Both the position numbers and the translations under genes were made by a program. A DNA stretch of 64,000 nucleotides from Gammaproteobacteria bacterium (GTDB lineage Bacteria; Pseudomonadota; Gammaproteobacteria; UBA6429; Thiohalophilaceae), in contig WGLP01000004.1 of assembly GCA_016125505.1 (NCBI GenBank), positions 62,001 through 126,000 of the forward strand. Reading direction: 5' to 3'. Numbering within the stretch: the stretch's first letter is position 1; each line of letters opens with the position of its first letter. Positions 47,504-51,618 of this stretch are shown piece by piece. The notes beneath the pieces are model-generated. The model was not told the origin of the DNA. It did not search any database and was given only the letters and a program-made list of their open reading frames with translations.

Positions 47504-48406
47504 TTACGGTGATACACATTGTAAATCGTCCGCGAACAGCACGGGGCCACGGTAGTGTGCCTTGATGAAATCAAGCGATTCCCCCTCATGCCCCAGGGTC
47601 CGCCGCATACGGTGGGACAACAACAACTTTTTTACTGCTGCCTTAGCGGCGATATCGCCAATCACGGATGGCGGCATATGCAGGTTGCGGGCAACACGAT
47701 CCGCGTGTTCGGGAATGGCGTGATGCGCAACCAGCAGATCCGCGCCGGCGGCGAGACCGGCCAGGGTATGGTAATCATTGTTCATATCGCCACTGAAGAC
47801 AATCACATACTCGCCTATTTCTACGCGATAGGCCAGGGCCGGAACCGGGCCGTGATGAACGGGGACCGCGCTGATTCGATACTCCTTTGACACCAGGATG
47901 GATGCTTGTTCCTTGCCATCGGCAACGACGTCGTGCGCCTCCAGGCGATAGGATTCACTGCCGTCAAGATAACCCGACAGGTAGCGATACGCCCCCTCTG
48001 GTCCGAACAGATCACGCACGAACTCCACCGTTGCGGGCATCAGCCGATTACCGGTCGGACCGAAGACCGGCAACGCCCGCTCCCGCGCGGTGAAAAACGA
48101 GGCCTTGATAAAAGACGGCAAGTCCGCCGTATGATCGACATGCAAATGCGTCAGCAGAATCGCATCGAGATCGCTGAAGTTGGCGCCACTTTGTTCAAAC
48201 CTCAGCATACTGCCGCTGCCAGCATCCACCAGGATGCGCGCCTTGCCATCGCGCCAGATCAGATACGCACTCGACGCACGACCGTTATTGACCTCCGGCC
48301 CACCGGAACCCAATACCTGCAGCCAGACACCGTGCGCGTCACAGCGTGTCATCGCAGACAGCGGACTCGCATAGACCACTAGCAGCAACAGCAAGCTTCT
48401 GAACAT
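47504..48406 (-). CDS. Exported metallo-beta-lactamase fold hydrolase
   Basis: 300 aa from ATG 48406, chosen because it opens a clean signal peptide (MFRSLLLLLVVYASPLSA). The di-zinc motif is THLHVDHTADLP, with further ligands in FSGDMNND, VAHHA and LLSHRM. The arrangement resembles the RNase Z/arylsulfatase branch (LGSGGPEV..GRASSAYLI), but export to the periplasm points away from RNase Z and toward hydrolysis of an ester substrate. Faces the cassette array. Confidence 0.88.
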   Translation of the reverse strand: MFRSLLLLLVVYASPLSAMTRCDAHGVWLQVLGSGGPEVNNGRASSAYLIWRDGKARILVDAGSGSMLRFEQSGANFSDLDAILLTHLHVDHTADLPSFIKASFFTARERALPVFGPTGNRLMPATVEFVRDLFGPEGAYRYLSGYLDGSESYRLEAHDVVADGKEQASILVSKEYRISAVPVHHGPVPALAYRVEIGEYVIVFSGDMNNDYHTLAGLAAGADLLVAHHAIPEHADRVARNLHMPPSVIGDIAAKAAVKKLLLSHRMRRTLGHEGESLDFIKAHYRGPVLFADDLQCVSP

Positions 48407-48430
48407 TTCCCCTTTGCTCCCGCCCCGCAA

Positions 48431-48855
48431 CCCCGCATGTGCCTATCGACCGTATGCGCCGAATCGATATGACATCGAGAAAGTTTAATTGTAATCGTTC
48501 ACACCAGTATCTCACACAACATTGTCCTGGTTACGACAAAAGTGCGTTCAGACACCGTGGCAGTCGCAGCTAACAAACTGTTTCTCAAGCGATTCAGGCG
48601 AGGTGGATGGCGGTACCACGGACTATCACCTTACTATTATCCTGTTAAAATTTTCCTGTCACGCAAGGCACGGTTCCCCAGCAGAACCGGCAGTCAGCGT
48701 GCATCGCAATATCGAGATAACCGTATCCCGGAACATTACCATGCCAAACTCAGTAGAATGCGCAATAATCAAACATCGTCTGCATTTGCAGTCTTTTCCG
48801 GTAATAGACCGCTGCAGCCTATTCCACGATTTAGACTGCAGCGGTCTGAGTAACT
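48431..48855. other. Region upstream of the first cassette, no recognised gene
   Basis: About 425 bp between the MBL gene and the first core site. Two overlapping small ORFs in different frames (112 and 103 codons) exist but neither has a ribosome site or plausible protein. If this is an integron, an attI-like site or leader promoter would lie here; I cannot identify intI. Confidence 0.35.
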
Positions 48856-48862
48856 GTTAGGG
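48806..48862 (+). repeat. Hairpin and GTTAGGG core at left edge of the cassette array
   Basis: AGACCGCTGCAG (48806-48817) and CTGCAGCGGTCT (48836-48847) form perfect 12-bp arms around 18 nt. Nine bases later, GTTAGGG (48856-48862) resembles an R' core, and the first cassette ORF starts 8 nt further on. There are no extrahelical bases and no clear R'' partner, so it could be a decayed attC, an attI-side element or a terminator. Confidence 0.4.
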
Positions 48863-48870
48863 CTCTACAG

Positions 48871-49152
48871 ATGACACCGAAAGGAATCATGCGAGAGAAA
48901 TACCAGGACTACTTGGTGCCGGGAAAGAAGTATCGTGTAGTTAAGCCATTCCTAGACGCCACAAAGTCAGTCCATCCCGCCGGTGAGACATGGACATTCC
49001 TTGGGTACTTACCCAATGGTTTTGGTGAGGCTACATATATTTCTATAGCCAAGGAAGATAAAACGGAAAGTGGCTTCGGGATAGACTGGAATTACGGTGA
49101 AAATAATCTTGGCCTCGAAAATATTAAAAACTTCATTCAAGAGATTTCATAA
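48871..49152 (+). CDS. Cassette ORF 1: DUF3601-like protein
   Basis: 93 aa. Core sequence LVPGKKYRVVKPFLDATKS and VHPAGETWTFLGYLPN matches, as I remember it, the DUF3601 family often met in integron cassettes; function unknown. No signal peptide. AGGG of the adjacent core (48859-48862) serves as ribosome site, 8 nt before the ATG. An attC site begins 26 nt after the stop. Composition differs from flanking genes. Confidence 0.75.
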   Translation: MTPKGIMREKYQDYLVPGKKYRVVKPFLDATKSVHPAGETWTFLGYLPNGFGEATYISIAKEDKTESGFGIDWNYGENNLGLENIKNFIQEIS

Positions 49153-49177
49153 GTGTCTTGCCAGAAAAGACAGCAAG

Positions 49178-49268
49178 CCCTAACAACCGGCTCGTGCGGA
49201 CGCCGGGGTCAGCACGCCATGTTTCCTGAAATAGTAGTGGCTGGCGCCGCACAGCCGGAACGTTAGCG
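49178..49268 (+). repeat. attC site 1
   Basis: R'' CCCTAAC (49178-49184) and R' GTTAGCG (49262-49268) bracket L'' (49187-49204, CCGGCTCGTGCGGACGCC) and L' (49243-49258, GGCGCCGCACAGCCGG). L'' is 18 nt and pairs with the 16-nt L' perfectly if C49193 and A49200 are left extrahelical. This fold, with a 38-nt variable terminal loop, is diagnostic of integron attC sites. Confidence 0.85.
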
Positions 49269-49278
49269 GTATAAAAAC

Positions 49279-49599
49279 ATGCCATCTGCAACATTTTATA
49301 TAAAAAACATACGGCGCAGCTTAACTTCAGTTGTTTCAAAACTTCCATTTTCAAAAATAGAAGGTGAAGCAATACTTCTGCGCTCTCAGCTAAATCCTGA
49401 AAATTCATTAAATGAACATCTTGTCTGGCTATGGAGCATGCTGAATATTGAGCGCAAGTTATTAAAAACTCTGAAACAAGAAGGTGCTCTATTAGAATGC
49501 AGATGCGAAGCAAAAAAAGATGAAATTATTATTAAGTCAAATGCTGCAGAAATGTTGCATTTGTTGGAGGCGGATTTATATGTTGAAGTTAACCGCTAA
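49279..49599 (+). CDS. Cassette ORF 2: hypothetical protein
   Basis: 106 aa, AT-rich gene. Sequence MPSATFYIKNIRRSL, then SLNEHLVWLWSMLNIERKLL and a charged C-terminal half; probably a small alpha-rich cytosolic protein. No family recognised. ATG is 11 nt after the R' core of attC 1; its ribosome site is weak (GCGG). It ends just inside the next attC. Confidence 0.6.
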   Translation: MPSATFYIKNIRRSLTSVVSKLPFSKIEGEAILLRSQLNPENSLNEHLVWLWSMLNIERKLLKTLKQEGALLECRCEAKKDEIIIKSNAAEMLHLLEADLYVEVNR

Positions 49600-49644
49600 A
49601 AATGTATATCGAGACAGGGGGTCTCTATAATTCAACTGTTAGGC
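49594..49644 (+). repeat. attC site 2 (short)
   Basis: R' GTTAGGC (49638-49644) is a perfect GTTRRRY core; CGCTAAA (49594-49600) is a degenerate R''. Between them TATATCGAGAC (49605-49615) pairs with GTCTCTATA (49621-49629), leaving two unpaired bases, around a loop of AGGGG. It overlaps the stop of ORF 2 and is 51 bp, at the short end for attC. Confidence 0.5.
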
Positions 49645-49655
49645 CAGGATAATAA

Positions 49656-50669
49656 ATGACTGAACGTATATACACATATTCACAGCTTTCATCAAAGACA
49701 GTGGGTCACATGGTTATGTCTCAATATGGATTCAATGAGAATTTAACTTGCAGGTATTATGTCCGAGGGATGCATGATAACTATCTCATCGAAAGTGATG
49801 GTCAAAAATATATTTTAAGGATATACAGGAACAATTGTCGAACTGAAGAGGAGATACTGTTTGAGCTTGAATGGCTAGGATTCCTGAAAAATAAAACAGA
49901 TCTTGTTGCCGAGATAATAGAAACAAAAGATGGAAATTTAGCATTTCAATTCGATAGTCCGGAGGGTATTAGATTTGCATCAATATTTCGATATGCATCC
50001 GGGAGTCCACCAGGAAATACAATAAATGTAAATGGTTCAGAGTTGCTCGGCGAGGCTGCGGCATATATACATAATTTTTCAGATACATTCCTACCACAAC
50101 GTACTCGCCAGGCTCTAGATATTCACTATCTGCTAGATGATTCAATACGTGCTATAGAACCATTCCTTGATAAAGAGGGTTATGCTTATCTTCGTGACGT
50201 TCATGAACAACTATATAATTCGATGCCAATACTCAAAAAGCAACCCGGTATATATGGCTTATGTATTGGCGACGTAAATCCTTCAAACTTCCATATCAAT
50301 AAGAACAATGAAATTACAATATTTGACTTTGATCAGTGTGGTTATGGATATCGAGCATTTGAAATTGGAAAATTTTTCTCATCTGTTCGTAACCACAATG
50401 ATAAACAGGTAATTACAGACTCATTTCTAAAGGGTTACCAGTCTATTCGCCCGTTGAGTCAACCAGAACACGATTCAATACCATATTTTGAAATTATTTC
50501 TGTAATTTGGGTAATGGCCATTCAAGTCGCAAATTCTGATCTTATCGGATATAAATATTTGGAAAAGCCAGCCTGGGATATGCGATTAAGTAGCTTAAAA
50601 AAGTTAGTTTCAGCTTGGCCAAGCAAATCGCTCCAATCGACACCAAAAAGCGGTGCGGCGGAGCTTTAA
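49656..50669 (+). CDS. Cassette ORF 3: aminoglycoside phosphotransferase-fold protein
   Basis: 337 aa, clearly AT-rich. Kinase-like APH fold: N-lobe YYVRGMHDNYLIES and KYILRIYR (ATP Lys), C-lobe catalytic loop CIGDVNPSNFHI and metal-binding IFDFDQCGYG. The usual Brenner-motif HGD is IGD, so the conserved His is replaced while the catalytic Asp and the Asn are kept. Many families in this fold phosphorylate sugars, choline, homoserine or aminoglycosides; a resistance role is only a possibility. AGGAT precedes ATG. Its 3' end overlaps attC 3. Confidence 0.8.
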   Translation: MTERIYTYSQLSSKTVGHMVMSQYGFNENLTCRYYVRGMHDNYLIESDGQKYILRIYRNNCRTEEEILFELEWLGFLKNKTDLVAEIIETKDGNLAFQFDSPEGIRFASIFRYASGSPPGNTINVNGSELLGEAAAYIHNFSDTFLPQRTRQALDIHYLLDDSIRAIEPFLDKEGYAYLRDVHEQLYNSMPILKKQPGIYGLCIGDVNPSNFHINKNNEITIFDFDQCGYGYRAFEIGKFFSSVRNHNDKQVITDSFLKGYQSIRPLSQPEHDSIPYFEIISVIWVMAIQVANSDLIGYKYLEKPAWDMRLSSLKKLVSAWPSKSLQSTPKSGAAEL

Positions 50670-50677
50670 CGCTAGGG
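50619..50677 (+). repeat. attC site 3 with altered core
   Basis: R'' CCAAGC (50619-50624) and R' GCTAGGG (50671-50677). L'' GCTCCAATCGACACC (50630-50644) pairs with L' GGTGCGGCGGAGC (50652-50664) through GCTCC/GGAGC and CACC/GGTG with unpaired bases between, closed by an AAAAAGC loop. The normal AAC/GTT pair is AGC/GCT on both sides, so pairing is preserved. Confidence 0.6.
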
Positions 50678-50685
50678 GTTCATAA

Positions 50686-51075
50686 ATGAATACATTACGT
50701 TCTTTTATATTGCTACTGGGAATTAGCGTAATGTCATTCACACCTGCATATTCTGGCGCTGAGTCAGCAACAGAGCATGCCGTCATAGTGCATTTCAATT
50801 ATGGCTCCAAAGATCTAAAAAGCCTGTTCGCGCTCGAAGATAAACTAGAGGCGGCAATATCAAAGTCGGGGGCTGGCGAATATGATGGTAATGAAATAGC
50901 AGTAGATGGAAGTCATGGCAGCCTGTATATGTACGGCCCAAGTGCAGACAAGCTTTTTGAGGTAGTAAAGCCCATTCTCGAAGCAACACCTTTTATGAAG
51001 GGTGCAAAGGTAAAACTGCGCTACGGCCCACCAAAAGATGGTGTGAAGGAAAAACATTATGTCATTAATCCCTGA
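50686..51075 (+). CDS. Cassette ORF 4: exported protein of unknown function
   Basis: 129 aa. Signal peptide FILLLGISVMSFTPAYSGA, so the product is periplasmic or secreted. The mature part (about 105 aa) holds LFALEDKLEAAI, GAGEYDGNEIAVDG, YMYGPSADKLFE and KLRYGPPKDGV, an alpha/beta ferredoxin-like looking pattern; I recall similar unexported proteins in other cassette arrays but cannot name a family. AGGGG of the core serves as ribosome site 7 nt before the ATG. Confidence 0.7.
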   Translation: MNTLRSFILLLGISVMSFTPAYSGAESATEHAVIVHFNYGSKDLKSLFALEDKLEAAISKSGAGEYDGNEIAVDGSHGSLYMYGPSADKLFEVVKPILEATPFMKGAKVKLRYGPPKDGVKEKHYVINP

Positions 51076-51150
51076 CAGGCGGGTCAAAGTCGCTTCCTTC
51101 GGTCGCAAGGACGCGCAAAAAGCGTACGCCCTTTACCCTTGTCGTTGGAC
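51067..51150 (+). repeat. attC site 4 (degenerate)
   Basis: R' GTTGGAC (51144-51150) fits GTTRRRY. GACAGGCGGGTCAAAG (51074-51089) pairs with CTTTACCCTTGTC (51131-51143) in segments GACA, GGGT and AAAG with an extrahelical C; a second hairpin AAGGACGCGC..GCGTACGCCCTT closes on AAAAA. R'' is poorly preserved. Confidence 0.5.
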
Positions 51151-51213
51151 ATACTAAGGATCTTGCGAAAGAACGGAAGGCCCTGATTAGTTCTCAATAG
51201 GAGTCGACAATTC

Positions 51214-51450
51214 ATGACACCTGTTCAATTAAAATTTGCACGTTTCAAATCAGGCCCGCTTGGCCGGACCATAGACACAATCCTCGGGCTGGCGCTCATC
51301 TGGTGGGGAAGCAGTCTCTCTTCTCTGTTCAAGGATCTCGCGCTCGTCATCGGTATATTCGCGCTGCTTGCCGGTGTACTGAACGTCTGCTGGGTGGCAC
51401 CTATTATTGGCATCCCGTTTCGGGGTAAAGACATACCCAAAGAAGACTAG
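51214..51450 (+). CDS. Cassette ORF 5: small membrane protein (DUF2892/YgaP-like)
   Basis: 78 aa with two membrane helices (about 19-35 and 42-62) and a C-terminal VAPIIGIPFRG. Organisation and sequence RTIDTILGLALIWWGSS resemble DUF2892 inner-membrane proteins. It starts 64 nt after the R' of attC 4, further than the other cassettes, behind AGGAG. A second GTTGGACA lies 30 bp after its stop (51480-51487), which would bound a last cassette, although no attC fold is visible there. Confidence 0.65.
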   Translation: MTPVQLKFARFKSGPLGRTIDTILGLALIWWGSSLSSLFKDLALVIGIFALLAGVLNVCWVAPIIGIPFRGKDIPKED

Positions 51451-51618
51451 GTATTGTGTCCCGCTTCATCGCGCTGGCTGTTGGACAGCCCATCAACTTC
51501 GATGTTGGGGAGAGTTCCTACGGTTTGGTTCACTCCCTGATTCAGCCACCGGTCAAATGCCATCTGCCTGTCGGGATTATACCCGTCTGACGGCGAGGCA
51601 AGCTTGTACGGATAGTTA

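Follow-up and report, generated by a model that had tools for sequence, protein, structure and literature searches.

The question raised by this locus is how a row of integron cassettes can stand where no gene for an integron integrase (IntI) is found. The 64,000-nucleotide stretch analysed here (the window) covers positions 62001-126000 of C12, a 168-kb contig of a gammaproteobacterial assembly (4.16 Mb, 23 contigs), and carries at 48856-51487 a series of open reading frames (ORFs) on the + strand separated by imperfect palindromes. An earlier note, made from the letters of the sequence, had read this segment as a cassette array without integrase, similar to the clusters of attC sites lacking integron integrases (CALINs). 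The reading is correct, and the matches to attC covariance models that the note had proposed as its own test were obtained. The segment is a genuine, though worn, series of captured cassettes without an integrase of its own, belonging to the CALIN class, yet it is headed by an attI and satellite-like. We consider it likely that this is an old, partly eroded array of four cassettes at an orphan attI-like site without integrase gene, to which the cassettes would have been added in trans.

Cassettes and attC sites of the array

From left to right, the array and its boundaries comprise the following features.

48800..48859, + strand: orphan attI-like site by sequence, left boundary of the array, ending at a GTTA core (60-nt alignment, matrix score 18.2)
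48856..49261, + strand: cassette 1, with ORF 48871-49152 (93 aa, weakly DUF3601-like) and most of attC1
49178..49268, + strand: attC1 (42.0 bits, E 4e-8 with model R1; 43.5 bits with model R2)
49262..49637, + strand: cassette 2, with ORF 49279-49599 (106 aa, unknown protein); its start is complementary at 7/8 positions to the R'' box at 49593
49593..49644, + strand: attC2, short, AT-rich and weakly supported (R'' 7/8 and a hairpin in the sequence)
49638..50670, + strand: cassette 3, with ORF 49656-50669 (337 aa, APH-fold kinase; PF01636, E 7e-17)
50618..50677, + strand: attC3, with eroded cores (27.2 bits, E 2e-4 with R1; 16.9 bits with R2; R'' 6/8)
50671..51143, + strand: cassette 4, with ORF 50686-51075 (129 aa, exported unknown protein)
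51070..51150, + strand: attC4, the last recognisable attC, whose core is a cassette junction (13.1 bits with R1; 20.5 bits with R2)
51144..51487, + strand: possible fifth cassette, with ORF 51214-51450 (78 aa, YgaP-like membrane protein) and GTTGGACA at both ends (51144 and 51480)

Covariance model R1 was built from 22 attC sites located outside the window (class 1 plasmid cassettes, the integron of a Thiodictyon plasmid and integrons in the chromosomes of relatives); two of them come from the resident integron of the source genome and none from the window. R2 was built from 55 sites. With filters off and both strands of the 64 kb scanned, the three top matches of R1 are attC1, attC3 and attC4, all on the + strand, and the same three sites are scored by R2 as listed above. 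The best match outside the array reaches 11.5 bits with R1 and 10.1 bits with R2, and the E-values of attC1 range from 4e-8 to 8e-8 across the models. Three of the four attC palindromes proposed in the earlier note are thus model matches, but the one at 49593-49644 is matched by neither model and was recognised from a bulged GAGAC/GTCTC hairpin, found by visual inspection, and from the complementarity of its R'' to its own cassette start. A finder restricted to strict RYYYAAC/GTTRRRY boxes missed the attC sites of the window because their cores are degenerate. The proposed cores stand at 48856 (GTTAGGGC), 49262 (GTTAGCGG) and 49638 (GTTAGGCC), but the one at 50671 is the degenerate GCTAGGG. 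The four cassette ORFs do start close to the cores, 15-18 nt past the first base of each, and ORF2 (35% GC) and ORF3 (37% GC) are the AT-richest stretches of their size in a window with a mean of 55.6% GC.

In a circular cassette the R'' box of the attC pairs with the first bases of the cassette to which it belongs. For cassettes 1 to 4 this complementarity is 8/8, 7/8, 6/8 and 5/8, the start of cassette 1, GTTAGGGC, being complementary over its full length to R'' GCCCTAAC. Triples composed of a core, a complementary R'' and a next core are found twice on the + strand of the window and not on the − strand, with a mean of 0.22 per shuffled strand, and a bulged stem of the attC1 type appeared in none of 60 shuffles. 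The right end of the array adds a comparison with a relative. Positions 51129-51288 are 82% identical to a sequence in genome G020 (contig C108) that is preceded there by a different attC; the homology starts in the L' arm and core of attC4, the remainder of attC4 being different, and 51144 is therefore a real junction.

Ordinary small genes with palindromes arisen by chance, an explanation that could draw on the silence of the models at attC2 and on an attC4 score near threshold with R1, would have to place the three best matches of 64 kb within one 2-kb stretch, on one strand and in register with the ORFs, next to a complementarity that shuffles do not reproduce and a junction at a core common to G020. 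By ordinary standards, those of attC models and complementarity, this explanation is already refuted and we give it practically no weight. The locus shows what defines a CALIN: at least two clustered attC sites (here three model matches and one weaker site, in 2 kb and on one strand) and no integron integrase nearby. The absence of intI from the window claimed earlier holds in a tblastn search that also covered 40 kb of C12 on each side. A complete integron combines intI, attI and attC, and this locus has no intI.

The left boundary and the integrase of the genome

The CALIN reading is right as a class but incomplete, since it missed the left boundary; these are not merely attC sites adrift. 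Judged by its sequence, the stretch 48800-48859 is a diverged version of the attI that adjoins IntI genes in the family. By blast, positions 48805-48860 are 82% identical over 56 nt to the head of a second attC array in this genome, on contig C5, and the homology ends at the GTTAG core, the same ending at the core being found in IntI-adjacent attI sites of the source genome and its relatives. Over 60 nt, ten IntI-adjacent attI sites align with one another and with the heads of the arrays on C12 (the window), C5 and C6. The position matrix, trained on relatives only, scores 67.7 for the C6 site, 62.8 for the attI on C2, 23.7 for the C5 site and 18.2 for the window site, compared with −5.9 for the next-best unrelated place in the window and 5.4 for the best of 12 shuffled windows. 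A local profile, R3, finds the C2 and C6 sites strong and the C5 site weak. The window site appears attI-like but eroded, the most diverged of its type (type A), and may now be inactive. It adjoins not an intI but a gene for an MBL-fold hydrolase (47504-48430, − strand). The sole match to Rfam (E up to 1), mir-21 on the palindrome of the attI-like site at 48795-48859, is meaningless.

This boundary also bears on the hypothesis that an IntI put the cassettes into an ordinary secondary site of the genome (attG) and that attI was not involved. Insertions of this kind are known (Loot et al. 2024, as reported in PMC12901181 and PMC11023631) and, like the process considered here, have IntI acting away from its own integron; the weakness of the window site in the strict profile R3 would agree with it. 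attG sites, however, have little in common beyond the core, whereas the left junction of the window resembles attI along 60 nt and so extends well past the core, and it is 82% identical to the head of the C5 array. We regard attG insertion as very improbable at this locus.

IntI genes were identified with TIGR02249 at a cut-off of 265 bits; NF011946 was dropped, as Xer-type proteins matched it in all control genomes. A single protein of the assembly exceeds the cut-off (468.6 bits, 465 aa). It is encoded on C2, where a divergent attI is followed by three cassettes whose attC sites score 59.6, 28.0 and 47.2 bits, and this locus is a normal small chromosomal integron with an intact-looking IntI. 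The resident IntI (L009:6051-7448, + strand) has about 148 amino-terminal residues without Pfam match preceding a normal IntI. Frames of about 470-490 aa are open at the same match in many relatives, and the IntI of a Thiodictyon plasmid covers 98% of the resident protein.

Six integrase-less arrays were found in the genome, five of them headed by attI-like sequences of two types. Those on C5 and C6 have heads of the same type as the window. The heads of two arrays on C21 share 91% identity along the 203 nt that lead to the core and match, at about 66%, the region upstream of a short-type IntI in genomes G005 and G032. They likely represent a second attI type whose probable IntI, of the short type, is missing from the source genome. 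Their attI-like copies, about 16 kb apart and heading integrase-less arrays, are:

L051 10306-10466, − strand (G000:C21): second-type attI-like copy
L052 7454-7614, − strand (G000:C21): second-type attI-like copy

The left boundary of the sixth array, at C6:94562 (L053 9563-9628 and 10737-10820, − strand), matches neither type. Mis-binning was considered for this assembly, which is listed with 5.72% contamination, and was rejected: the tetranucleotide profiles of the stretches from C2, C5, C6, C12 and C21 agree (r 0.91-0.96).

Orphan attI sites in relatives and the origin of the array

IntI is present in 32 of 40 genomes of the order. In genomes of the family R3 detects several attI-like sites each, such as 11 in G018, which has one IntI, and 9 in G001, which has none; outside the family they are rare (6 of 183 genomes sampled from the class). 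Among 20 orphan attI-like sites of relatives in fetched loci, most of them picked for the attI match and not for attC, 14 have an attC on the same strand within 1.5 kb downstream; in no case does the opposite strand carry one. No IntI lies near these sites except for a broken remnant in G012, where fragments of the gene (L125, G012:C216, 1920-2417) directly adjoin an attI-like site. This genome has no IntI above the cut-off and is an example of intI loss with attI retained.

The window could have had the same history: a complete chromosomal integron lost intI by deletion, leaving attI and part of its array, and each dispersed array of the genome would be an independent loss. The G012 remnant and the second attI type on C21, with no remaining IntI in the source genome, speak for such a course, which would require five losses with attI retained every time. 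No IntI remnant was found at the arrays on C12, C5, C6 and C21, and relatives show cassette exchange at an orphan attI. Loss of intI in place is thus, in our view, an unlikely origin for this array, albeit the most serious of the alternatives.

The exchange is seen in G018 and G001, two genomes of one genus that share an orthologous orphan site. Conserved between them are the left flank, attI and what lies beyond the last core, GTTACGCATA; the cassette between attI and this core is a different one in each genome, with breakpoints at the cores. Comparison of the two sequences identifies this difference as a cassette exchange at a site without adjoining integrase gene; an IntI acting in trans would have carried it out. 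In these two species the attI occupies the 3' end of a dispersed repeat (about 0.4 kb), built partly of 117-nt tandem copies, of which matching pieces number 47 in G018 and 62 in G001. The repeat (L117 937-1455 and 2905-3300 in G001; L113 in G018) is often found just upstream of attI-like sites and is a possible vehicle of attI. The orphan attI may originate from loss of intI in place, favoured by the G012 remnant, or from copying of attI alone, favoured by the dispersed repeats of the other genus.

New cassettes enter an integron at attI. Under the explanation that we favour, capture in trans at an orphan attI, an integron integrase would have added the cassettes singly at the left end of the window array; this enzyme would be today's single IntI on C2 or a past relative. 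The attI and the distal attC sites would have decayed later, the rightmost attC sites being the most decayed. The R'' series, falling rightward from 8 to 7, 6 and 5 of 8, fits growth at the left end and decay at the right. The sequences show the attC sites, the similarity to attI, the lack of a local intI and a distant IntI with its own attI and cassettes; we infer the action in trans, the order of insertion and a past function of the window site. The array is probably static now, and the orphan site on C6 looks intact. The attI-headed arrays of the genome, at least five in number, together with the several stray sites of relatives, suggest that one integrase may serve many capture spots.

Several points weigh against capture in trans. 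The decay series is based on four sites, and one of them, attC2, is undetected by both covariance models over the 64 kb. With R3 the window attI yields just a reverse half-match of 11.6 bits, and the right place scores 3.6 bits. No recombination was observed, and the genomes compared include no sister of the source organism from the same genus. The search with right-flank proteins found no orthologue in the order, and therefore no empty site is readable for the window; left-flank orthologues exist in G030, G020 and G034, with no synteny across the array. Public sequences contain further examples of attI followed by attC with no IntI in the stored stretch, in JANTGN010000053.1 (a Thiotrichales metagenome-assembled genome) and JAUWUS010000003.1 (a gammaproteobacterial one).

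Cargo, known systems and meaning for the family

The sequences of the five proteins point to no clear function of the cargo. The matches of ORF1 to DUF3601 (E 0.011) and of ORF5 to PF11127 (E 0.001) are below cut-off, and family searches gave no match for the proteins of cassettes 2 and 4, the latter having hypothetical relatives on Paraburkholderia and Methylosinus plasmids. The kinase of cassette 3 is nearest to homoserine-kinase-like families, in matches below cut-off, and its carboxyl terminus, TPKSGAAEL, runs into attC3. It has no close relative in the genome contigs searched, and by itself the fold does not indicate drug resistance. A cassette promoter was looked for at the window site and could not be shown. 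The fifth ORF does sit between two GTTGGACA cores, as the earlier note had it, but the second core has no preceding attC recognisable to either covariance model; ORF5 is a candidate cassette gene and may belong either to a cassette that lost its attC or to flanking DNA beside which arrays settled. In the G020 copy (L069, 14900-15550, − strand) the shared 5' part of cassette 5 enters after 26 codons a small Cys-rich ORF, which we take to be DUF1272-like; this copy is truncated or recombined.

Neither CALINs nor their mobilisation in trans nor insertion at attG is new. Like the CALINs defined by IntegronFinder (PMC9024848), the window array lines up two or more attC sites, keeps its cassettes on a single strand and has no IntI nearby, and it differs from them by its attI-like head, the presence of several such arrays per genome and an IntI elsewhere in the genome. 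The CALINs of Xanthomonas are similar in that several integrase-less arrays per lineage occupy fixed chromosomal places, and the available passages of that work state that a functional IntI can mobilise them in trans, with no mention of attI copies at CALIN heads (PMC12444791). The window array shares with the sedentary chromosomal integron on C2 an attI of the same type followed by attC cassettes, and lacks its intI and divergent integrase promoter region. In the searchable literature, which leaves most subscription journals outside, we found no description of attI-headed CALINs in several copies per genome or of orphan, dispersed or multiple attI sites.

The usual view takes CALINs for degraded integrons, and of late scattered cassettes have been interpreted as insertions at attG. 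In the genome studied here, a recognisable attI, of one of two lineages, heads five of the six arrays found to lack an integrase. We see about even chances that the integrons of this family are multi-locus, with a single gene for the integrase and many scattered attI platforms that lack intI and each hold one or a few cassettes exchanged in trans, the platforms being copied with a dispersed repeat in some genera. If IntI serves orphan attI sites in trans, a small integron would have many first positions simultaneously, and tools that rely on attC and intI only would miss the platforms. Cassette capture and expression would then be distributed along the chromosome and no longer queued behind one attI, and the family would be a natural place for testing capture in trans and the spread of attI.
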